Assembly (NCBI GenBank): GCA_010093605.1
Contig: MU004190.1
Coordinates: 186,001 to 250,000, forward strand
Reading direction: 5' to 3'
Source: Lophium mytilinum
Taxonomy: Eukaryota; Ascomycota; Dothideomycetes; Mytilinidiales; Mytilinidiaceae
DNA: 64,000 bases
Each line of letters opens with the position of its first letter. The stretch's first letter is position 1. A model generated the notes under the pieces. It made no database searches, was not told where the DNA came from, and was given only the letters and a program-made list of their open reading frames with translations. Made by a program: the position numbers and the translations under genes. This document shows positions 8,297 through 34,283 of this stretch, piece by piece.

Positions 8297-11200
8297 CTAA
8301 CCTCTGTCCTCGGAGGGTTCCTCTTCTTGAACAAAATCATGATCTGGAGTAATATCTTCACCGGTCCGTATTTTCTGCACTAACTCATCCCAACTCATCC
8401 CGAAATACGTTTCTACCCTCTTCATGCCCACCATCTCCTTGATTGACTTTGCGACGCCCCCTTCTTGCGCTTTTTCATCCTTAATCGAAGGATAAGGATC
8501 TGCGCCTGCCCGCAGGAAGATTGGTATAAAGTCGTTGGGGCCCCAACGCACCGCTGCACATAACCCGCTATCCAGGTCTTTGTGGTAGGATTCAGGAAGA
8601 ATGGGATCACCGCCGCTTTCCAAGCAGGCCATCAATGCCGCTTTGTTTTTAAAAATTACAGCACACCTTATACCGTCACTGTAATCCCTTGGAGAGATGA
8701 ATCTAGACATGTTCCCCCAACGCTCTGGGAAACCACTCTGACCATTCTGACTTGTCGCGGTCGACTCTATGGCTGATGAGAAGAGCCCATCTGGCCGCAT
8801 CGTAACTGCGAACTCATCCACGAGGATCTCTAACGTTTTGTGACTAAGTTGTTCGAAAGCGGCTTGTATTGCCCTGGTCTTCTTTGATTTCCTCCTAGCG
8901 TACGGTATTGATATGCCTCGGGGGTACAGGAATCTCCTTCTGAAGTCCGGATGTATCACTCCCCCATCACCGGTAGGACTAGTACCGTTCCTCACCAGAG
9001 CTCTGAGTGTGGTGAAATTTTCGAGAAGAATTGAGACCAATAATGCATTCTCCAGGATGGTTGAAAGCGCCTTTGTATTCAGTCCGGTTGATCCACTGAC
9101 GCCCAACTGTTTACCCTGCAAGATCAAGTAGTCGATCAAGTCGCCCGACCCTTTCCAAGCTGCCAGTTGGAGGAGCAGATTGAAGTCGACATCTCGACCC
9201 TGCTCCGAAATAACAGGGATAATATTGCGGGTCAGTTCGAGGTCATCACTTAGAATTGTGTGTTCTAGCATCGCTGACAACTCCCTGGCAGTCAGCCCGC
9301 TCAGTTGAACGCCTGGTTGCAATCTGTCTCTGGGGTTTCCATGATCGGGATGAAAGGCGACACGGTGTTTTTGCAGATCCTCTTCGTACTGAAACCCAAG
9401 GCTAGCATATATGCAATTGGATGCCGGGCATCTGTTCAGCCTTCGATGCGTCTGTTCGTGACTGTCTCGTTCTACGATGCTGGAAAACCCGTTGTGATGA
9501 AATTGGCAGAATCTCCATTTGCATTTGAAGACTTTGGTGCCATAGAGCTTAGATAGGATCTGGCAGTCGCATTGCGTTGGGGACGAGGAGTGTTCACAGT
9601 TTTCTACCATGCTTCCTAATGCCACTTCAAAACGTTCCACGGCTAAGGACACCGCGGTGGGATCCTCGTATATCCAGTCCTCATCTACAGACCATGTCAG
9701 TGGACCTCCCTCGGTCAACGTCTGGATTAGGGATGTCTCACCATCCGGCGTTGTATGACCGTATCGAAGTCTGTCCAAGAATTGAGCTGAAGCAGCCAAT
9801 GAATTTTGGATAGTTGGTGCACCACTGAAGTATTGGAAGTCTGCTAGGAAAAAGCTTGAGCTATCGGACTCATCAGTCGTGGCCGTATTTCCTCGTTCTT
9901 TATAGAATCGAGCTAGAAGACGGTGTATCAAGTCGGCTCTTTCGTCCTCCAGCGTTGAATTTTGAGTCAATGCCCTTACGTGCTCTAACCAGAAGTCTGC
10001 AGCATACCGAAACAGGATGAAGTCTCCTGACAGTATTCGACTTTGCAAATTCTTTTCGTTCTGGTTGGCGAAATCAGCAGAGAAGATTTCGTCGAAGCAG
10101 TTGAACAAGAAAAACGTTAGACAACTTGATATTGCCTCAAAATGTCCGTCCATACGGCTCAAGAAGTTGTCGCTCTGCATCCCAAAGAGATACCTGTACG
10201 AGTATTTCGTCAATGCTGTCTTTTCTAATGTGTACAGCGTGCTGGAGGCCTTCACTTACTCGAATGCTGTGAAATGCACGAACCGAACCACACCGTCTTT
10301 CATCTCGATGACTGAACCGCATGCTGCGTTGATATCTAGCCATAGCTTCCTCTGTTTTGTGAAGTCTGTCATCAAAGAGTCAATGAGAAGGGCCTGCAGC
10401 ACTTCGCATTCAGTAAGTGGGACCTTGGCGCACCCAACCCACTGCAAGATTCGCTTGGCAATTGGATTGCCGTGAATGCGAATCAGAATGCGTTTGTATC
10501 TAAAAATAGTCAGAGAGAAGATCGGAAACGAAGAGAAGGGTCTCTATTTACGCTTGGTCAAGACCGTTGGGAAGGTTTGCCAGTTCTGCCCGTATGCTGT
10601 TGAGGTCTGGCTGGGATTTTGCAATCCCGAGAACTAGTTTAGCATATAGGAACATTCCTATTTATTCATTAATAACTTAGCACATTTAGAGGCACATTCA
10701 CGTAGTTGCTCACCCTTTGCTCTTGTCACGACTCCGTTCAGGCTGGCTGCTATCTCAGAACAGTCGGAGTCATCAGCACCAAGAGCCCTCAGCTCTGCGA
10801 ACCAACCCTTCGCCTCTGACTGAACATAACCTCCAATGTCCGGTCCATTATTCTCATCCACTCTTACAGATACCATTTTATCGTTGAAGGATCCCACGAT
10901 GTCACTCTCTGATCTCGCGCTTAGGAGTAATTTGAGGTTCTCACAACCTTCAAGCGCTTCTAGTAGCATCGGCGCGAGTTTTCTTCGTTTGTGATCGTTG
11001 ATTTCGTCAAGGCCGTCGACAACGACGAAAAGAGAACCAGAATCTTTCGCGATATTGAGGAACAGCTCTTTGACGAACTTGGAATCGCTGGTAAAGTCTT
11101 GCCTCTTGTTAGTGTAGGCGTCCCAGACTATTGGCACCAGCTTGTCATGGTCAGCATTGATAGCTTGAATGATGAGCGAATGTAGAATAGGAATTGGATC

Positions 11201-12438
11201 GCCGAGAAACTGTGAGTCATGAGACAGAAAGACAAACAACACGAGCCGGCCTTCGTTTCGTAAGTGATGAATAACATTAGCAGTTAAGTTTGTCTTGCCT
11301 GAAGCGTGAATTAGCTTGGTCTCTACCGTACCTTTTGCAATCACGTTGATAAAAGACCGATCGTCTACGAAGGAACACTCACCAGCGCCAGGTATGCCCC
11401 GAATCCACAAACCTTTTTCACTAAATGCCTTAGAATTGAGCCATGACTGGAATGCGAGGCTGCTGAAAAACCACTCGCCTGACCCCGCGGAAGTTGCCTC
11501 GATGGAACTATGCAGCTTTGAATGGCACGAAACGCTTGTCATGATGTCAGAAAGTATCTTGAGGCGCATCTGATTTTGATATTTCTTATCATCCTCGTGC
11601 TTCTGTAGGGTGATTCGGCGATGGTGATACGCCTGGAGAACATGCTCGAGTGTCACATTGCTATTCATTATCATCTTGTGATTCTCAATATTTCCTTGGA
11701 TGGCGGCTAGTTTTCTTCGAAAGGTAGGCCACAGCGCTTCGAGTGCCATGTGGAGACCTGTAGAGTAAAGGTATTAGTTTCGATGGCTGAGGGAGCAGTG
11801 ACATATAATGCTGTTCTTACCCTTTTTATTGAAGAAGTTCAACATCTCCATATGCAGGTCAAGAATATCGCGATAGAAGAGACACATCATGCTCTTGACC
11901 TCGTTGTTCTGATCAAACATTTTTGACTCAGCATATTTTCGGAATTGCGGGAGCATGGCCCCAACTTCTTTCAAGACACCAAGTAGCTTCTGGAACGCGG
12001 TGGCGACTGAACTGGCAAACTATAATATATTTGTCAGACCAGCTAAGCAAAGCAAGCATCTTTACCACCAAAATGAGACTAGAGTACTGACCTGGAGGAT
12101 CATCTTCAGAGGCCCCTAAATGGAGTTAGTGCCGATGCAATTTTTGCAATAACCCCTACACTCACCCAAATCAAGCAAATGAATTCAGGTTTCAGCTGAG
12201 CGAATGTGTCCATAGCGCCGATATAGTCTCGCAGGCCCTCTATGTAAGGCTCAATTCTCCTCAAGGCAACCAAACTTTTTGACTTCGACTGAATTTTCTG
12301 AATCTTCTCCACCTCGTCATACACATCTTCAATGGTTCCAAATCTGAGGAATTGATAGCTGAGCGGATTCTTCAGTTCGGAGAAGAAATCCCGCCTGGCA
12401 TCACTGAATGCATCCTCAAGCCATGCATTAGACGCCAT
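8297..12438 (-). CDS. NACHT NLR-like (STAND) protein with C2H2 fingers and ankyrin-like C-terminus
   Basis: Eight exons give 1232 residues: 12438-12166, 12115-12092, 12019-11821, 11757-11383, 11298-10714, 10657-10552, 10499-10260, 10193-8297. Residues about 50-165 look like the DUF7708 N-terminal domain of fungal NLRs (ICLIW-GPLKMILQ-FASSVATAF). The NACHT core follows: WIRGIPGAGKT (P-loop, about 283-293) and LFVVVDGLDEIN (Walker B, about 380-391), then a winged-helix-like FLYAKLVLG and FVHFTAFEYLF. Residues about 825-885 hold two C2H2-type fingers (C-x4-C ... H-x4-H). The rest is Leu/Ala-rich with ankyrin-like helical repeats. Fungal STAND NTPases act as ligand-triggered switches in incompatibility and xenorecognition. 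Exon 2 is only 24 nt, and an intron splits the P-loop. Confidence 0.9.
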
Positions 12439-22919: not shown

Positions 22920-25749
22920 ATGGTCACTAGGTCTCAGAAGGCGCCCCAGAGGGCAAAGAGCTCACGAACCCGCGAGTTCATCGACGTTGACGCAGTCGCT
23001 GGGGATCAGCCTAGTTCGGGCGAAACCACTATCCTTGACGACTCCACCTACGTGGATCCAGAACCCTCCACCCAGGACAACGTGGGCGAGTCCGCAAGCT
23101 CTTCTTCGACGGCGCAGAATAGTGGTGCCGACACTCATAGTAAGATGTCTCCCTCCCGGGTTCTCACATATGCGCTCTAACACCTCATGTTTCTAGCGTT
23201 AATTAAGCAAGAGGCTCTTGCACAGCTCCACAGCCACGACATGGATACCATGTCCCGCCGCCCGAAGGAGCTAATCAAGGCGCTAAATCGCCTTTCCGAG
23301 CTTGGGCTTCAGAATTATGAAGTTCCATTACCAAACATCGTGGTTCTAGGGGACCAGTCGGCGGGAAAGTCTTCCGTTATTGAAGCGATTTCCGAAATCA
23401 CGGTCCCTCGAAGCTCTGGCACATGCACTCGCTGCCCCCTCCTGATCAAGTCTCTTGTGGATGATGAGCCCGGTGCCGTGTGGCGGTGCAAGGTAGACTT
23501 GCACAGGAACTTCGAATACTATGGCAAGACGTTTCCCCGGTCCATGGACAAAGATGTAATTTTCAAGCCCTGGGTAGCCAACGCCACTCCAGTTGTCGTA
23601 CCGTTCATGAGAGTGGACAACAAAGACGATCTACGCGACGCGATCCACCGGGCGCAGCTTGCTCTTTTGAACCCCGGCAAACCTTCGGCAAGCTACGCTT
23701 CTGGTCCAGTTCAAGCTATTGGAGACAGCAACGGCCTCCAATGCGAATTTACTCCAAATGTGGTGTCCATCGAGATCTCCGGTCCGGGGATGATCAATCT
23801 GTCATTCTATGATCTACCCGGAATAATCAACCAAACCGAAGATGAGGATAAGCCATGGCTCGTTAGCATTGTCAGGAACTTGGCCTGCAAATATATCGAG
23901 TCCCCGAACACGATCGTCTTACTTGCAAAGTCTATGGAGGTCGATCCTCAGAATTCCAGTGCGGCGAGATTAGCCCAGGAAGAGGGCGCGAATAACCGGT
24001 GCATTGGTCAGTACTCCCAAATCAGAACGTCGCCATAATTTCTAAGCCATACATACTAATATGTCAGCAGGTGTACTCACTAAACCGGACCGTATTCCCC
24101 GCGGCGATTCCGTCGTCATGTGGCAGCGAATGCTTAGCGGGGAAGCCTTCACGCTGCCACTTGGCTACTATGTCACTAAGCAGCCGTCCCAAGCAGATCT
24201 GAACCGCGAGACTGTGACCCACGATAGGGCACGTCAGCTTGAGAATAATTTCTTTGCATCCGCAAAGCCCTGGTGTACCGACTTTGCTAAATTCAAGCAC
24301 CGTTTTGGTACTGTTGCTCTGCAGAAAGCTTTGTATGATGAACTTGTTGGTCGCATGGTTAAAGGCCTGCCCAACATTCGCCAGTCCATCCGCGCGCAGA
24401 TCAACGATTTGGATGAAGAGCTCGAGAACATCCCGGAGCCCCCGACTCAAAACGCACAAGCTGCGGTCAATGAGCTAGTGCAGTCATTCGCAAACCAAGT
24501 GGCGAAACTGATGGAAGGGGAGCACCCATTCAACGAATGGCGTCTAACGTGGAAGAGTCAGCGACAATCGTTCCTGAACAACCTGACAACGATGCGACCG
24601 ACTCTGCGTATCCAAGGGTCTCTGGATACTGGGCTGTATCCGAATCAAATTGATTTAACCGCAGATTCGGATGATGATGAACAGTCGCCCTTGCCTTTGC
24701 GCATCGCTGCCACGCCTGTCGTCACTCCCTCGAAGCGTCGCAAGGTAGAGGAACCATCCACGCCGAGACAGACAATGCCACGACAACAAGCTCCGAAGAC
24801 CCCGACACACAATAGGGACCAAGCCCCGCCAAAAGTTTTCGAGTTGGATGACATTTGTAAAGCCCTCAACGACATGTCATCTTCTGACATTCCTAGGGAG
24901 GTTGACTCGAAAGCCCTCGACTTCCTCATTCTGGAGTCCCTGCAAGAATGGGATAGGCCTACGGACGCCTTCTTCCAGTCATTGGATAGAGCTTTGCGGG
25001 TCCAGCTGCGAGGAATCTTCGACCAAACCTTCGGAGCGTGGCAAACTAGCGAACTCTACAAAAAGTCGTGGGAGATTATCGATCAGTTCTTGAAGTTACA
25101 CATGACCGAGCAGCGCGAGACCTTGGCAATGCATGCGCTTAACGTTGAGCGAGAGAAGCCTTTCGCCGGCGATGACCAACTTTGGGATCACCACATCTCC
25201 GAAGCCTTAGTCGCACTCCAACATGCGCGCACCATGAGACGACTCACGATATACGCCAATGAAAAGGCAGATGTCACTGGGAAGGAAGTCAAGCCATCAG
25301 AATTGGCCGGGTTGAAGTCGAAACCAGAGGTGGCGAAGATCGTCACGAACGACCCGTACCGTCGCGAGGTCGAAGTGATGGCGAAAATCCGAGGTTACTA
25401 CAAGATCGCGTCCGTCCGATTCTACAGCAACATCTGTCTGAGCCTGCAAAGCAAATTGTTCAAGATGCTTCGACTGTCTTTGCGCCACGAAATTACGATC
25501 GGTCTGGGTGTCTTCGCGGATGACGGTAAGCCTCCTCATTTCCTCTGTTTTACCTTTCGTACTAATTTAGCAAAAGGTCGCGACCGCTGCAAAGTACTTC
25601 TCGAAGAAGATCCACAGCGAGCCGAGCAACGACGCGTGCTTCTCAACAAGCGCCTGGCCCTGGTCGAAGGTCAAAAATGTCTTGATGACTTGTTGGACAA
25701 GTACAAGGACGCGAATGACGATGACGTCGACAGCATGGAGATATGCTGA
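22920..25749 (+). CDS. Dynamin-superfamily GTPase (Mx/fungal dynamin-like)
   Basis: Exons 22920-23139, 23197-24006, 24071-25525 and 25577-25749 give about 885 residues. GTPase motifs: GDQSAGKSSVIEAI (G1, about 125), PRSSGTCTRCP (switch I), DLPG (G3, about 279) and TKPD (G4, joined across the second intron). A middle domain and a C-terminal effector-like region with RCKVLLEEDPQRAEQRR follow. Residues around 540-600 are a low-complexity insert with a basic PSKRRKV, which could be a nuclear signal. The N-terminal 75 residues are Ser/Thr/Asp-rich. Such fungal proteins are membrane-remodelling GTPases of unknown cargo, distinct from VPS1, DNM1 and MGM1. The last intron is a multiple of 3, and its acceptor could be 25570 or 25576. 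Confidence 0.88.
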
Positions 25750-27663
25750 GCTATGGTGACCGGACAGATCTTGTTTCGCCTCGGTTCTTCCATAGCTCTC
25801 GCCTGTTCTTGCGAATAGCTTGTGATCTTCATGGATGGTAAGATGGACGATGTGCTTCAGGAACCTCGCAGGAGACCTGGCTGTGCTATCCATTGGCATA
25901 CGAGATCCCGTATCATGGCCTATCTCTTTCACTGTCAGTTCTTGTGGTTGATGGCTCTCCCTTTTAAGGTTGCGCTTTCAATGCTGGTTCATCTGCTGCT
26001 TTTCTTTCCAAAATCTGGGTTTCCTTGGCTACTTTTCCTCTTCTCCGACGAAGGCTTGGGTTGGATCGCGATTGGTCTGGCATCGCCCCGCGCTCTGAGC
26101 ATATTGCGTCGCTGTGCACGATTACCAAGCGCTGCGCATCGGAAACCTGTCTCGAGCTCAAATGTCTCAGCGCTAGGATCAACAGGCCTCAATGTTGGCT
26201 TCCAATTTCCTTTGCCTATCTCGGTGTTTCAGAATTGGTCTCATGGCCAGCTTTTGGTAGTCACCAGCAATGATGACACTTTCCCTAATCTTCTGACTTT
26301 TGAATACTCGAAGTGACTAGATTACTGCTTGAAACATCGTGTGTACTCCTACTACTGACTCCCAGCGTCAAAGTTACTCAATCGCGAAGCATGAGCAACG
26401 CCGCTCCTCGTGTCTTCATGACTGTAAGGTAATCTATTTGCATATGCTTAAGACGTACTAAAACTCGCAGCCCAGAAGTCCGAAATCGACTATAGTCACT
26501 CGCATTCCCTCCTCCCATCCCTCCCCGCCATCTCTGGTGCCCTCATGCTCCGCACCGCCGCCGAGACGAATCCTACCACCGCGGTAACTGCCAAAACTCC
26601 CTCCGGGTCTTCCGTCGCAGACATAGCCGCGTCTACCACGATACCACCGCTGATACATCAATCAACCTTCCCGACGGCAAAAGCTTTCTCCAGGGCCCCA
26701 GGACGAATAGCGGCCGCGCCGATTCGGAGCTCGACGATTGGGAGTTTGGTAGCATAATCGCGCCCTTTGCGCCTTGAGGCAATGGACATAGCAAGAGGAG
26801 GATGCCGCGGAGTTCGGTACGGGGAGTTGCGGAAGTCTGAGTTCAGGGGGGGAAGCTGCCGTGCGGGAGGGTTGATTGGGGGTCTGGAGTTTGTTCTTGC
26901 ATGGGAAAAGGAGAGCAACACCTCTCGTCGTGTGATTGGTAGGGTGATGAGAATGTATGGGTTAGAAAAGCAATTTTGCCTTCGTCAATACCGTCCCCAA
27001 AAAGCTGCCATGTCTCTGTTATCTTCTTCATACTTTTTCCTACTAACCCCTCTGCTTTCTTTCTCACACATTCCACGTGTAAGACTTCTTCGACGCTTTG
27101 CCGATAGGCGCAACCCCCCTTCACCAATCTTGATACCCTTGTTTAGACGGAGTGGAAACGATTGATAATCTATATGAGAAATCTCACGATGAAGCAAGAG
27201 GCGCTTCAGACTTTGGTCTTTTGCGACGAGTGGTTGGCTATGCCCATCGTCTTAGCTTGTATTTTCTCTTTTCCTGGTAACATTACATACTTAGTTTTTA
27301 GCTATGACTTCTTTCTTTTGAGGTGTTTCCATGTCTTGAATCAGCTCCGTTCAAAGAGCCTTACTCCAGCGTAGACATAACTCCTCTTCCGCGAAATCAA
27401 GTCTAGCATCTTGACTCCACATCGGTGACTCTCAGAGGCGGAGATGGCACATGAGACACTCTGACTCGCTTATGAGATGTCAATCGTCGAAGGAGTGATT
27501 CCGAGAGCATCAAAGTGCTCTGACTGAAATGGGGTTGCCATTCTCTATAAAACCTAGGCACCCTACCTATCTTCTCTCTTTAACATCCCTTACGAACATT
27601 CAAATACTTAAGCACCACTTCTCCATTCAACCATTTACAAAGCCAAACGAACAACTATTCACG
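25750..27663. other. Intergenic 1.9 kb with an unresolved GC-rich island
   Basis: No gene can be firmly called. The GC-rich part 26490-26780 has open frames on both strands; the minus frame from an ATG at 26786 gives 43 residues (MSIASRRKGRDYATKLPIVE...) and the same frame stays open and protein-like after its TGA. The plus strand has MSNAAPRVFMT followed by a GTAAGG donor at about 26423. Either could be a broken or short gene. The final 150 bp are the promoter of the first secreted-protein gene. Confidence 0.4.
27518..27552 (+). promoter_or_regulatory. Array promoter 1: octamer plus TATA box
   Basis: CTCTGACT at 27518-27525, 19 nt, then CTATAAAA at 27545-27552; the start codon is 112 bp downstream of the TATA box. 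The octamer is the most diverged of the six but sits at the same distance. Confidence 0.75.
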
Positions 27664-28312
27664 ATGAAGGCATATCTTATCCTCATCGCTGCTCTCTTTT
27701 CCGCGTCTGCCTTTGGCCATCCGGGTAACGGTGGGGCCTTCAAAGACGGGAAAGCGCATGGGCATAACCACGGTCATCATGGCCGTAACATGAAAGCGGA
27801 CTGGATTCCTAGATTTGGAATGCCATCATGGGGAAAGAGGGAAGACGACCAGGACAAAAACGTGTACTATCTCGCCAATTGTAGCAATGCCAATCCCTAC
27901 TACCTCCTCCTCTACAGCGACTTCAGCAAGTCGTACGACCCTAAGAACGAACCCACCTTCCGCGAAGCTCTTCAATACGTAGTCGATACCTTCAAGTTAG
28001 CAGCAAGCTCCGGGCATCAAGACTCTGGCTTCGAGGCCACCTTTAAAGACTTGGGTGCGAGTTGGTATGGGATTGATAACGGGAGCCGGTTGGGGTCTGG
28101 GAAGGATCGCTATGGTCCCTTGTATTGCTACAAGGATACCGGTCGGACATTATGGCAAGGGAGCACAGAAACTGAAATATGTTATGCGTGGTATTTCTGC
28201 TGGCGGAAAGGTCGTGGAACGGTAAGATAGAATTTTGTACTGAGTTGCAGTGACCAAGTGAGACATTGATTGTGCTAACTATAGACAGCCTAAAATAACT
28301 AAGCCGGGGTAA
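27664..28312 (+). CDS. Secreted four-cysteine protein, array member 1
   Basis: The exon 27664-28221 encodes 186 residues; a GTAAGA donor and GCTAAC branch site suggest a last exon at 28289-28312 (PKITKPG), with an alternative acceptor at 28284. The start MKAYLILIAALFSASAFG is a signal peptide nearly identical in style to that of member 4. A His/Gly-rich stretch (about 20-45) and a dibasic KR (about residue 60) precede the core, which starts NVYYLANC. Three further core cysteines follow the array pattern: LYCYKDTGR and EICYAWYFCWRKG. I do not recognise the family; four Cys suggest two disulfides. It is likely exported, perhaps after Kex2-type cleavage, and may be an effector or antimicrobial protein. 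Confidence 0.85.
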
Positions 28313-28924
28313 TCTAAATGAAGGATTGATGAGGACTTTACTTGATGGCTCTTCGCATCATGAGGCCAGGTTTCGATACTCAGTAGAGCTGTACTTGCTA
28401 TCTTTTCGTTGGAGGGATGCTTTGTACCATCTTTGTCTTTCATAGAGTTTTGTCAAATTGTAGTCTCGAAGATGCTCTTGTTAGAGTAGTACCCCAGGTT
28501 TCAAATATGCGGTGATGAGGTATCGTCCCCTGAACGCAGGAAGGAGCCGCATGCATGCACTGTTTAATTCTTTTCTTTCTCTCTAGATAGTTGCGTAGCC
28601 TTATTACCATATTCCAGTTTTCATAGACCTGTTACGTTCAGCACAAGATTCAATTGACCAAGGCGGACTGATCCTTCTGACTGTGCCTACCATTTTTAGT
28701 CTTTGACGAAGACTCCCTCTCGGAATCTTAATAATTTTCTATTTTTCACCGCCCTACACTTTTAAAAGAGTCATTTCGATCTGACTGCTCTTTCTTCGAT
28801 GTGAAGGTAGTGCTGGTTCGACCCAGACCGGTGACTCAGGATCGGGATCGTGGCATATACGACGCACCGAAACCGCGATGAATTATTGACTAGCAAAAAG
28901 ATCTTGCAGAGGCGGGAAGAACCG
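28313..28924. other. Spacer between array members 1 and 2
   Basis: AT-rich; no frame with the array core motif. Nothing recognised besides the promoter at its end. Confidence 0.5.
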
Positions 28925-28960
28925 TTATGACTGTATTACTGTAGCTGTCGACCATAAAAA
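28925..28960 (+). promoter_or_regulatory. Array promoter 2: octamer plus TATA box
   Basis: TTATGACT at 28925-28932, 19 nt, then CCATAAAA from 28952. The start codon follows at 29074. Confidence 0.8.
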
Positions 28961-29073
28961 GGTGTGCAAACCACAATCTTCTGCTTCTCTCTACACTTCA
29001 CACATCCACAATAGCACTACCCTCAGCTTTACCAACAAACACTCATAATCATCAAACATTACGACGAGGAAAT

Positions 29074-29703
29074 ATGAACCAGCAATTCCTTTTCATCCTT
29101 TTCCTGTGCCTCGCCGCTTCCGTTCTTGCTCTCCCTGGCAAACCTCGCCATGAGAGCAACCCTACGCACGAAAGTCACGCATTCGACTTCTCACGTCTAC
29201 AGCAAAGACAAGTCGACAGGGGATTCAACAACGTGTACTACCTCGCCAATTGTGCTGGCGGTTCGAAAGTGGCTTTTTACGAAAACATGGATGATTCTCA
29301 CGATCCCAGCCATCAGCCTGATATTACCCAAACGGCCATTGGCAGTAAAGGTCGTATAGACGCGTCGCATTTGATGGTGGTATGGGAGGATAACACAATA
29401 AAGATGTTGGAAGACACATCCAGAGATTTCGAGGTGCATATCAAGAAAATAAAATGGCATAAGGAAAAGGCAGCTATACCTGCGGGGGGTGGCGCAGATC
29501 GAGACGGGCCGTTGGCATGTTTCAAGGATAATGGAAGGAATCTTTTCCAAGCAGTCAGAGGGGACAGATGTAGCGCCTTCTACTTTTGTTGGCGGAAGGC
29601 TCATGCTCAGGTACGTTCTCTCTCTGCAACTTATGCTTTGTGAGGGGTTTATACTAAGCTGTAAAAGCCCGTACCGACGGAACCTGGGGAGGTTCATGAG
29701 TGA
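29074..29703 (+). CDS. Secreted four-cysteine protein, array member 2
   Basis: Exon 29074-29610 (179 codons) ends at a GTACGT donor; with a TACTAAG branch site and acceptor at 29667, exon 29668-29703 adds PVPTEPGEVHE. Unspliced reading would stop at 29643. The signal peptide is MNQQFLFILFLCLAASVLALPG. The core begins NNVYYLANC, continues VAFYENMDDSHD, and ends LACFKDNGRNLF and DRCSAFYFCWRK. This member has a longer middle than members 3, 5 and 6, rich in Lys and Asp. No catalytic motif is visible. Family unknown; role inferred only from export and clustering. Confidence 0.85.
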
Positions 29704-30232
29704 TCCTTCGGAGCCTAAGGTTTTTGGTGGTCAATTATTTCTGTTCTACTCTTATAGACTTTGTTTTTATTGCAGCATTTATGCTGGGGCGGCCAGGTGA
29801 GAAGCACTGGTATTGTCGGGTTCTGTATGCGTGTTATTCTTCATACCCTCTTAAGAACATCATTTTCTTATTGTATATTATTCAGTTCTTCTGTTTCAAC
29901 TAGAAAATCTTCAATTTACTGAAAGTGACCGCGAGACATTGACGATAAGAACGGCAAGGATAACGATGACTAGGCCACCCTCAGCCTCCCTCACAAATGG
30001 AAAAGCAGCATCCCTTTCTTCTACTTTGAATAGCTGCATAATTGACACTCTATGTCTCACTGCCGAACACTATTCGAAAATTCTATTCGTGACTCCTTTT
30101 CCCCCGCTATGAATGTAATGCCAGATTGACTGTACGAACGTGATTCTCAGATTTGCAAACGTAGCATGAAAGATATACTAGTGTAACTAGACATGAGTCT
30201 GCAAAAGAATCATGCCGATATGAGCAAGATGT
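29704..30232. other. Spacer between array members 2 and 3
   Basis: AT-rich. At 30090-30110 it carries TGACTCCTTTTCCCCC, which recurs upstream of member 4 at about 31357, so the shared promoter homology extends at least 150 bp above the TATA box. Confidence 0.6.
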
Positions 30233-30267
30233 TTATGACTACGAAGGTCTTGGTACTCCCTATAAAA
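30233..30267 (+). promoter_or_regulatory. Array promoter 3: octamer plus TATA box
   Basis: TTATGACT at 30233-30240, 19 nt, CTATAAAA at 30260-30267. Just upstream ATGCCGATATGAGCAAG resembles ATGCCGGTATGGACAAG above member 4. Confidence 0.85.
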
Positions 30268-30401
30268 CATAGACGCTATGCTTCCAACCAAGTCTTCTAA
30301 CCTCAACGGCCCGCAAATAAGTCTCTTGCCTCGACATCATTGAAAACCTTTACTACCTAAATTCTTTCTCAACCAACGAAACCAAACAACCCTTCCACTC
30401 G

Positions 30402-30981
30402 ATGACCATCATGATCTGGTCTATTCTCATTTTAGCATTTCGGCTGCTGGCCTTTGCTTCCGCATCCCCGCTGCCTAGCCCTAGTGGCACCCCTCTCACA
30501 CCTCAGGAGATCGCGAAGAACGTATACTACCTCGTCAACTGTCCGTCCGGAGCCAGGATCGCTTTTTACGACAACATAGACAACTCTCAAGGTGGCGAAA
30601 CTCCATTAATCACGTACAACGTGTCTGCTTCAGTACCAATCGACCATACTCAACAAGTATACTGGGGAGGTCAGACCTACTTTACCGATCCCGACGCGAA
30701 CCAGTTTCGAGTCACGGTCAAGGGAGATTGGTCCATGTATAACTACAAGAAAAGTGTAGGGGGAGGCAGTGATGGGAGGGGACAGTGGCTATGTTTTGGG
30801 GACAATGCAAGGATGCTTTGGACAGATACGTCCGGGAAATCCTGGCAGGATGAGCCTGGTTCAGCCTGTCAAACTAGATACTACTGCCGGCGAGAGGGCT
30901 ATGATTCAGTAAGACCTTAACCCGGCTAGATTTGTCGTTAAGACAAGGCTAACTTCACCTTAGGTTCCTCCACAGCCTTAA
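30402..30981 (+). CDS. Secreted four-cysteine protein, array member 3
   Basis: Exon 30402-30908 (169 codons) and exon 30964-30981 (VPPQP) give 174 residues, joined over a 55-nt GTAAGA...TAG intron with GCTAAC branch site. Signal peptide MTIMIWSILILAFRLLAFASASPLP; a second ATG lies three codons in. The core starts NVYYLVNC about 10 residues after a short Pro-rich stretch with no dibasic site, then RIAFYDNIDNSQGG, QWLCFGDNARMLW and ACQTRYYCRRE. The four cysteines are in the same order as in the other members. The signal peptide groups it with members 5 and 6. Confidence 0.85.
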
Positions 30982-31159
30982 TTGATTGTGATGGATCAAC
31001 TGCTGTTTTTGTTTAGCAGCAAGTTTGCTTACATGGGGTGGAGTTATGTTCGACTGGTGGAATTACACTGTTTGTCCCCATTGTTTTCCATTGGCTATCT
31101 TCTATTGGTGGTATTAGATTGTTTGTTTCTATGTATTTTCTACTGTAAATCTTTGATTC

Positions 31160-31290
31160 GCGGAAAGTGTTAAGCTTGAGTTCTGATATGCACAATGACC
31201 GCAACCCCACGGCTCCTACAAAGCCACGATAGATGAAACTGTTCCAACCTGCCTCCGCTAAATAATGAAAATAGTGTGGTCATCTTCCCC
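31160..31290 (+). promoter_or_regulatory. Decayed array promoter without a gene
   Basis: The stretch AATGACCGCAACCCCACGGC at about 31194 aligns with AATGACCGCAACACCATGAC above member 5 (about 32509), and homology continues through ACTGTTCC...CCTCCGCTA to the TATA position, where this copy reads CTAAATAA. The octamer is degraded. Only non-coding sequence follows, so this looks like the remnant of a lost array member or a duplicated promoter. Confidence 0.65.
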
Positions 31291-31504
31291 TCCGGACAAC
31301 CTGCAGAAATGAGAGTCGGTGCCTCACTAATATACACTATTTGTATGCTCATTTCTGACTCCTTTCCCCCAAACGTGAACGCTGAATGGAGTGCTCGCTT
31401 GACTCACCTGGATAACTCTTACAATTGCAAATCTGGCTTGGAGAAAGCCTAGTCATCTTCGCACTGTCAGTCGTCAGAAGACTAATGCCGGTATGGACAA
31501 GTCA

Positions 31505-31539
31505 TTATGACTTTGACGGCCTTTCCGCTCTCTATAAAG
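31505..31539 (+). promoter_or_regulatory. Array promoter 4: octamer plus TATA box
   Basis: TTATGACT at 31505-31512, 19 nt, CTATAAAG at 31532-31539; start codon at 31650. Confidence 0.85.
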
Positions 31540-31649
31540 CCAGGTGCTACCTTCCTCTTCTGCCTTCAACAACTTGCAACCATATTCGATCACCACAAAC
31601 CACGATTCTAAACTCCAACAATACCAAAGTACTGAAACCGCTGTCCAGG

Positions 31650-32180
31650 ATGAAGATCTACTTCGTACTCATCACTGCTCTTTTCTCTGCTTGTGCCTTC
31701 GGCCTTCCTGGTGATGGAAAGCGCTGGAACGCCAAAAAGCGCTATACGCAGAATCAACCTCCACATCATGACCCCACTTCCCACTGGCCTCGCAAACGCA
31801 TGGATGACACGCTCAAGAACAACGTCTACTATCTCGCCGACTGTATTCCAGGAGGGTCGGTGATCGCTTACTACGGCGACATAGACTGGTCTCAGAAGGG
31901 CGTATATCCTGACTGTTTTGGGTTTCCGAAGGACTCTCCACAATGGGGAAATGACACTCAGATCGGGGCCGCTGCCGGCGATAGGCACATCACGATTCCC
32001 CCGTGGAAATGGGTATGGGATTCAGCTAAAGTCGGAACTCAAGCGGGAGACCTTCATGACGAATTCGGAGGCCAGAAAGGAGACTGGCAGTGTTATCAGG
32101 ACAATAAAAGGCTGCTGGTAATTTTGCCGGGGGACAAAAAGTGCCAAGCTCGGTTTTGGTGCAGGCGAAAGGGGCTTTGA
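31650..32180 (+). CDS. Secreted four-cysteine protein, array member 4
   Basis: A single coding exon of 176 residues starting MKIYFVLITALFSACAFGLPG, close to the member 1 signal peptide; an in-frame upstream extension to 31425 contains the TATA box and is leader. A basic, His/Pro-rich stretch ends in RKR about 8 residues before the core NNVYYLADC, so Kex2-type processing is likely. The core continues VIAYYGDIDWSQKG, DWQCYQDNKRLL and KKCQARFWCRRKG. An extra Cys lies in the loop after the second strand (YPDC). The reading frame stops at TGA just before a GTACGT donor; the terminal intron of the other members is thus in the 3' UTR here. Confidence 0.87.
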   Translation: MKIYFVLITALFSACAFGLPGDGKRWNAKKRYTQNQPPHHDPTSHWPRKRMDDTLKNNVYYLADCIPGGSVIAYYGDIDWSQKGVYPDCFGFPKDSPQWGNDTQIGAAAGDRHITIPPWKWVWDSAKVGTQAGDLHDEFGGQKGDWQCYQDNKRLLVILPGDKKCQARFWCRRKGL

Positions 32181-32555
32181 AACGGTACGTCTTGACCCTG
32201 TTATAAGTCGGTTCTGAATATCTGCTTATTGAATTGTAGCATCGCCGCATCCTGTGCATCACACTTAGGCAGTAGTGCTAGCGGAGAAAGCTTCCACTTG
32301 ATAGGCTACCTCTTTAGCCGGAGTTTTGTTGCCAGCTAGAAACTTATGTTGTTTTCCTAGAGTTTTCTTTTGTTGCAACCTTCCTCGCCATGCAAGCGAG
32401 GTATTAGGGTTAATTTTGTTTGGTGGCTTTAGGATGTCAGTTTCATTAAATCTCCTGGAGCGGGTCCTTTATTCAGCGAAGTGTTTCATGATCAAGCTTT
32501 GATGTCCAAAATGACCGCAACACCATGACTCCCACAGCGCCAAGCTGTACATGTG
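32181..32555. other. Spacer between array members 4 and 5
   Basis: Contains a probable 3'-UTR intron (GTACGT at about 32185 to an acceptor near 32239). No other feature seen. Confidence 0.5.
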
Positions 32556-32590
32556 CTATGACTGTTCCTACTCCAACCTCCGCTATAAAG
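32556..32590 (+). promoter_or_regulatory. Array promoter 5: octamer plus TATA box
   Basis: CTATGACT at 32556-32563, 19 nt, CTATAAAG at 32583-32590; start codon at 32717. Confidence 0.85.
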
Positions 32591-32716
32591 TGAGAATATC
32601 ACACTGCTTCCAAACTTCAATCAATCGCTAGGAAATCTCCCTAATTTCAGAATCTAGCAAGCAAGCAGCACACCATACACATATCCATTGTCCGAGCTTC
32701 TATCAAACTTTCAAGT

Positions 32717-33181
32717 ATGATGGAGGTCTTGCTCATTGTCATCTTAGCATTCAAGCTCCTTTACACCTCTTCTGCATCGCCGCTCCCTGATAGCCCACTC
32801 ACTCGCAGAGCTGAGCCCAACAAGAATGTCTGGTACCTCTCCGACTGCAATGGCGGTGCAACCATCGCCTACTACGACAACATAGACAACACTCAGCAAG
32901 GACAAGCACCCCTCGCCGCAGATTTTGTCTATCTAAAACACCCAGTGAGCTGGGGAGTCGATGATATCCAGTCCAAATTTGCGGAAAGGAGCGTTACAAT
33001 CCCCGTTTGGAAACAGACATGGATTCCATCCCACGTCTTACTACCCGGACGTCTTCAAGACAAATTCAGGAACCAGAAAGGGGATTGGCAATGTTATCAG
33101 GATACGGGAAGGTCGCTGTGGAAGTTGGATAACGTTGGAGACTGTAAAGCTCAGTTTTATTGCAAGCGAGTAGTCCTTTGA
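32717..33181 (+). CDS. Secreted four-cysteine protein, array member 5
   Basis: The shortest member, 154 residues in one coding exon. Signal peptide MMEVLLIVILAFKLLYTSSASPLP, then LTRR (dibasic) 7 residues before the core NVWYLSDC. The core shows TIAYYDNIDNTQQG, WGVDD, DWQCYQDTGRSLW and GDCKAQFYCKR, with exactly four cysteines after the signal peptide. The stop codon precedes a GTGAGA donor, as in member 4, placing the terminal intron in the 3' UTR. It shares GDWQCYQD and a preceding DKFRNQK/DEFGGQK motif with member 4, so these two cores are close relatives although their signal peptides differ. Confidence 0.87.
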   Translation: MMEVLLIVILAFKLLYTSSASPLPDSPLTRRAEPNKNVWYLSDCNGGATIAYYDNIDNTQQGQAPLAADFVYLKHPVSWGVDDIQSKFAERSVTIPVWKQTWIPSHVLLPGRLQDKFRNQKGDWQCYQDTGRSLWKLDNVGDCKAQFYCKRVVL

Positions 33182-33558
33182 AATGGTGAGACTTGCCTCT
33201 TTGACGTTAGCTCTTGGATATGTGCTCATGATATCGTAGCTTCAGGTGCACCTCACTGGGACAGTAGCTGTTAGACGAAGATGAAGGAGTTTCCATCGAA
33301 TGTGCTACTGTTTCTAGAGCGAGATATGTTGAAGGCCATAGATTTCTTCTTTCTCTTATGGTATCTCCTTTTTTCTGATCTTCATGGCAATCTGGCAGCG
33401 TAGGCCATAATTCAGGCTCTTTGAAATGTGCTCAACCTCTATGAGTCTATAATTCGAGTTTTTCCAACCGTGATTCATTCTCATCGTCGTTTTCGCCGAT
33501 GATACCTCAAGAAGCGCGAAGTGGCCGCAAGATCATGACTCTAGAAACTTCGAGCTAC
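33182..33558. other. Spacer between array members 5 and 6
   Basis: Probable 3'-UTR intron at its start; GTGGCCGCAAGATCATGACTC at about 33520 matches the block above member 5. No gene. Confidence 0.55.
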
Positions 33559-33595
33559 TTATGAGTGGTCTAGAGTCTTCTTTCGCTATATAAGG
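33559..33595 (+). promoter_or_regulatory. Array promoter 6: octamer plus TATA box
   Basis: TTATGAGT at 33559-33566, 19 nt, CTATATAAGG at 33586-33595; start codon at 33742. Confidence 0.82.
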
Positions 33596-33741
33596 GGGCA
33601 GCATATTCCTCTCCTTCTCTTTCTTCAACAAACCTCACTCCAGTTCTCGAAACCTGCTATCCACCTCACAATCACACAACCAGGCTCTCTATCGATTCTT
33701 CAAAACCGGTACCATACCAATCAGACACACTCAATACCACC

Positions 33742-34283
33742 ATGATTTGGTCTTCCGCTGTTCTGGCTCTTCAGCTATTGGCCACTTGTGATGCATCGCC
33801 GCTTATCCAGCATGATGGATGGAACGAGAACAATGACAACGTTTACTACCTTGCGAATTGCAAACTCGACTCGAAGATCATGTATTATAGCGATATCAAG
33901 ATCTCTTATACAGACGAACATCGGGCCCAGACCACCACCGACCAATACAGGCCTCCCTTCCCCGGGGGGTGGGAAGGCAAAACCATTCTAGCATGGGGAC
34001 CCAACCCGACGTCCCGAAACTTCAACGTCACTATTTTTAGCAGGACATGGACGAAAGACAAGAATGTTGGGGCACTGGCAGGTCACGCTACCGACTGGTC
34101 TGGTGGATCGTGGGATTGCTTTCAGGATAACGGGAGGTGGTTGTATAAGGACCCCGAGGACTGTTCTGCTCAGTATATCTGTGGGCGAGCCGGCGTTGCG
34201 TTAGTAAGTCTATTTATGCTTCAGCTCTTAGTGAAATGATGCTTATTCGATTGCAGGCTCCTCACCCAATGCCTAGCTCGTAG
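33742..34283 (+). CDS. Secreted four-cysteine protein, array member 6
   Basis: Exon 33742-34203 (154 codons) and exon 34257-34283 (APHPMPSS) give 162 residues over a 53-nt GTAAGT...TTGCAG intron; read-through would end at 34239. The signal peptide MIWSSAVLALQLLATCDASPL resembles member 3. The core starts NVYYLANC directly after an Asn/Asp-rich linker without a dibasic site, then IMYYSDIKISYTDE, a Pro/Gly/Trp-rich middle (PPFPGGWEG), WDCFQDNGRWLY and EDCSAQYICGR. It is the most diverged core in the middle part. It closes the array; no further copy is seen to the right. Confidence 0.85.

Follow-up and report, generated by a model that had tools for sequence, protein, structure and literature searches.

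Small secreted proteins that are lineage-specific and encoded in tandem are common in fungi. The fungal effector families MAX, LARS and RALPH are alike in structure and unrelated in sequence (PMC13242284). Here we describe a tandem array of six plus strand genes, g1 to g6, in a 64,000-nucleotide stretch of the Lophium mytilinum genome (the window, i.e. the whole stretch analysed; contig C10:186001-250000 of the searched assembly of 43.2 Mb in 24 contigs), the predicted products of which are of a familiar kind, while their sequence family is new. They resemble the MAX, LARS and RALPH effectors in being small, probably secreted proteins with low-identity paralogs on a retained scaffold. They differ in that the seven Lophium members (the array plus one dispersed copy) are still clearly related in sequence, and in that the two Lophium models compared gave no fold match at Foldseek E<=0.001.

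The AltA1 family (PF16541) invites a similar comparison, its members being small secreted Dothideomycete proteins with disulfides, as is predicted for the Lophium family, and the AltA1 fold is a beta-barrel with disulfides. Membership of this family is not supported by profile searches, in which none of the seven Lophium proteins lists the AltA1 profile at E<=10. The genome has its own AltA1 match, the only one listed (contig C1:977176-977418, 68.7 bits, above the family cut-off), and comparison of our family profile with the first exon of that gene gave a probability of 1.6% (E 0.031, over 24 columns). The AltA1 fold was also not among the Foldseek and VIA-align matches listed for the two models, a result that excludes nothing.

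The public proteins of five of the six array genes (locus tags BU16DRAFT_539732 to 539736) are labelled Lophium mytilinum, and g5 is also present in the protein database, in a form identical to what the window encodes. The taxonomy entry for this species holds one strain, CBS 269.34 (Mytilinidiales, Dothideomycetes), and we infer that the assembly is of this strain. According to PMC11514609, CBS 269.34 was isolated from Pinus, and the fungi in its group occur on roots and needles, cones, wood and bark as well as on resin. The Lophium proteins can be compared with small secreted proteins that are taxon-specific in Cenococcum geophilum (PMC5023957): both sets come from the order Mytilinidiales and share orphan status and, probably, secretion, and the two fungi differ in lifestyle. 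The protein-database searches, the sensitivity of which was limited, matched no Cenococcum protein. L. mytilinum is a saprobe and is not known as a pathogen, and the array, as six natural variants of one scaffold, is suited to asking what orphan secreted proteins do in fungi of this sort.

Relatedness and distribution of the family

The array genes start at positions 27664, 29074, 30402, 31650, 32717 and 33742, and the array ends with the last exon of g6 at 34283, the same end as in a first-pass annotation of the window made from its sequence alone. That annotation had proposed six clustered, same-strand paralogs with four invariant cysteines, and our results bear this out. When six-frame genome searches using each member as query were pooled, at least seven members were found (only the best candidates were scored), the seventh being a dispersed copy on the minus strand at C4:2340014-2340481 (BU16DRAFT_536151, P0008). 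Whole-genome protein searches connected the family genes with E-values down to 2e-23, and all 21 pairs of cores scored 5.1 to 19.5 standard deviations over 200 shuffles, at pairwise core identities of 26-47% (g4 and g5 being the 47% pair). Individual queries did not reach every member: the dispersed copy was matched by g1 (E 0.0054) and g2 (E 4.9e-7) and missed by g3, g4, g5 and g6, and g1 was missed by g5 and g6. A match on contig C2 (E 0.10, with an internal stop) was taken as chance.

Within the window, three of the four sequence patterns of the first-pass annotation were confined to the array. Across all six reading frames of the 64 kb window, NV[YW]YLxxC, C[YF]xD[NT]xR and Cx[ATY]x[FYW]xCxR, of which the first and third had been widened a little from their original form, each had 6 matches, and 18/18 of these lay inside the six array genes. 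A further proposed strand pattern, [IV]xxYxxxxD, survived in part, i.e. its Tyr is present in 7/7 members and its other positions are not the same in all. Twelve columns are invariant across the seven members: the start Met, the four cysteines (shared by the dispersed copy), a Tyr, a Trp, two Gly, an Asp, a Leu and the Arg that follows the final Cys. The g4 core holds a fifth Cys.

Sequence comparisons with Pfam, NCBIfam and PDB produced no match above chance, and a collection of 5.8 billion proteins, with NCBI, UniRef and nr among its sources, yielded only L. mytilinum/window proteins. This was the case for the single match to a g5 query (E limit 0.001; 27 candidates scored), for all three matches to the full family alignment (E limit 10; 1608 candidates scored) and for all seven matches to a query steered by the conserved blocks (E limit 10; 71 candidates scored). 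With the known paralogs as a sensitivity control, g5 recovered 0/6 relatives, the full alignment 3/7 members and the conserved-block query 7/7; relatives in other fungi that keep the blocks should therefore have been seen, although more distant ones need not have been. The earlier statement that no named family could be recognised thus holds for all of these searches. Judged by sequence, this is a real, unnamed family of apparently secreted proteins that our searches encountered in a single species, and its fold is possibly new as well.

The cores had also been described as differing in the manner of rapidly diversifying proteins, and this was not borne out. In a Nei-Gojobori (NG86) analysis of the 15 pairs of array genes, synonymous divergence (dS) had no finite value in 10/15 pairs, and the ratio of nonsynonymous to synonymous divergence (dN/dS) was 0.36-0.74 in the remaining five, an average that would overlook selection at a few sites. 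We read the absence of finite dS as saturation, so the array copies appear to be of considerable age and to have evolved, on average, under constraint. Old-looking duplications in a family known from a single species could reflect loss elsewhere, relatives too diverged for these searches to pick up, or sparse sampling of related genomes.

Proposed role and competing explanations

We tentatively favour a role as secreted extracellular binding proteins, i.e. all-beta, barrel-like domains with two disulfides and variable surfaces. According to this proposal the hydrophobic leaders would direct export, and three of the proteins would be processed by a Kex2-type protease, cutting at a dibasic site ahead of the core. 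The core would then fold as a small all-beta, barrel-like domain braced by two disulfides, with a conserved scaffold around the cysteines and with loops and middle strands that vary, presenting a different surface in each paralog. Outside the cell these surfaces would most likely serve binding rather than catalysis, capturing or blocking a partner such as a molecule made by a competitor or a host, a glycan, or a small compound from the conifer substrate, and tandem copies would broaden the range of targets. A hydrophobic N-terminus, judged by eye, is present in 7/7 members, making the export claimed earlier likely, and a [KR]R site lies ahead of the core in 3/7. The cores have a pI of 5.26-7.83 and a charge of -2.2 to +0.9, are 11-20% aromatic and, in 5/7 members, contain an N-glycosylation pattern; in the seven-member alignment, none of the invariant columns is His, Glu, Ser or Lys. 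The lack of such columns and the near-neutral to acidic, aromatic cores favour binding rather than catalysis, and they make a cationic peptide that acts on membranes less likely.

Several results weigh against this proposal. Both signal peptides and Kex2 sites were judged by eye or by pattern, and a [KR]R site ahead of the core is absent from four of the seven members (g2, g3, g6 and the dispersed copy). As Foldseek found no fold match for the two models at E 0.001, the term barrel derives from weak similarities in shape, and the top-ranked structural match listed for g1 was PvdP, which is not a simple barrel-binding protein. Asp, Tyr and Arg by themselves can suffice for enzyme activity, and dN/dS gave no sign of diversifying selection. 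Finally, the low sensitivity of the protein searches (0/6 paralogs for g5 alone, 3/7 members for the first alignment) means that relatives elsewhere may exist.

The same features can be read in other ways. Small, probably secreted, disulfide-braced products of tandem duplicates, with Kex2-like sites in 3/7 pro-regions, could be antimicrobial or killer-type proteins directed at microbial competitors or at grazers that share the bark and wood habitat, and growth on Pinus within a group found on wood, bark and resin (PMC11514609) would suit such a role. We consider this possible but rather unlikely, given that no Pfam toxin match above chance was found and that no immunity-like gene was present among the ten neighbouring frames scanned with Pfam, which are part of the neighbours. 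The cationic antifungal proteins of fungi are strongly basic in their mature form, unlike the Lophium cores, and the strongly cationic version of the antimicrobial role raised in the first-pass annotation is therefore not favoured. An unlikely explanation is that the proteins are plant-directed effectors for colonisation of pine tissue, with structure kept and sequence divergent: L. mytilinum is a saprobe, dN/dS gave no indication of positive selection, and for neither model did Foldseek report an effector-fold match with E<=0.001 (which excludes nothing). It draws its support from Cenococcum, also of the Mytilinidiales, in which taxon-specific symbiosis-induced genes are enriched in small secreted proteins (PMC5023957). 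The effector reading of the first-pass annotation is compatible with growth on Pinus but unspecific.

A structural or developmental function, whether in the cell wall, in the spore or in the carbonaceous fruit body, would link the restriction of the family to one lineage with lineage-specific morphology, and would suit the aromatic content of the cores. It is nonetheless improbable, as inspection by eye of the public spliced models and single-frame genes revealed neither a glycosylphosphatidylinositol (GPI)-like hydrophobic C-terminus nor long repeats, and the His-rich pro-region of g1 was the sole low-complexity stretch noticed. Even less probable is that the proteins are secreted two-disulfide beta barrels of a new fold, originating in or persisting only in this lineage of fungi on conifer bark, that bind small hydrophobic molecules (terpenoids or phenolics of resin) much as lipocalins and odorant-binding proteins do, with the array supplying pockets of differing specificity. 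That they are small secreted enzymes of an undescribed family is very improbable: one Asp, one Arg, one Tyr and one Trp are invariant and might serve catalysis, but no His, Glu, Ser or Lys is, and the searches gave neither a family match above chance nor, for the two models, a fold match at E<=0.001.

Gene models, upstream elements and neighbouring genes

The predicted proteins of the family are 154-193 amino acids long (g4 counted by its open frame). The g1 model (exon 1 27664-28221, intron 28222-28288, exon 2 28289-28312; 193 amino acids, BU16DRAFT_539732) was based on the open reading frame and the public spliced protein P0011, aligned to the DNA by eye; its pro-region is His-rich and a KR site precedes the core. 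The g2 gene comprises exon 1 29074-29610, intron 29611-29667 and exon 2 29668-29703 (190 amino acids, BU16DRAFT_539733, public spliced protein P0007), and g3 comprises exon 1 30402-30908, intron 30909-30963 and exon 2 30964-30981 (BU16DRAFT_539734, P0009), the public g3 protein being 171 amino acids long and starting at a later ATG, 30411 instead of 30402. The last gene, g6, has exon 1 at 33742-34203, an intron at 34204-34256 and exon 2 at 34257-34283 (162 amino acids, BU16DRAFT_539736, P0010). In all four of these genes the public spliced proteins place a phase-0 intron of 53-67 nucleotides seven codons past the last cysteine, and exon 2 encodes a short tail with Pro.

Both g4 (31650-32180, 176 amino acids, BU16DRAFT_539735) and g5 (32717-33181, 154 amino acids, with an RR site ahead of the core) are single open frames, closed by a TGA that lies 4 nucleotides ahead of a donor-like site, which itself sits where the other members have their intron. 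This common placement of the TGA fits with g4 and g5 being the closest pair. The public g4 model (P0012) is spliced differently and is without the last two family cysteines, both of which the genomic frame retains; the splicing of P0012 looks like a gene-model error.

Upstream of the array genes, TATA[AT]A was found at -170 to -90 in 5/6 cases, compared with 2.6% of 20000 random window positions. On the plus strand, these TATA boxes lie at 27546..27551 for g1 (118 nucleotides ahead of the ATG), 30261..30266 for g3 (141 nucleotides ahead of the first ATG), 31533..31538 for g4 (-117), 32584..32589 for g5 (-133) and 33587..33592 for g6 (-155), and g2 has CATAAAAA in the same upstream range. Stretches of 99 nucleotides upstream of g4 and g5 are 70% identical and include the TATA box of g5 but not that of g4. 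A stretch resembling TGACCGCAA, perhaps by chance, recurs upstream of g3, g4, g5 and g6, at 29925, 31195, 32511 and 33523.

Seven of the ten neighbouring frames scanned matched Pfam, and together the scanned neighbours suggest no pathway for the array. The downstream matches were to a D-amino-acid-oxidase-like enzyme, a P450, a diphthamide-synthesis protein and an SMP-30-like protein. Upstream, the N-terminal and middle domains of a dynamin-like GTPase were matched in two adjacent plus strand frames (23187-25749), which are perhaps exons of one gene. Further upstream, on the minus strand, a long open frame that matched no Pfam family (8297-10255) adjoins a gene with an NPHP3_N domain (a NACHT-like NTPase; 10658-11749, minus strand), a type of protein common among fungal incompatibility-related genes.
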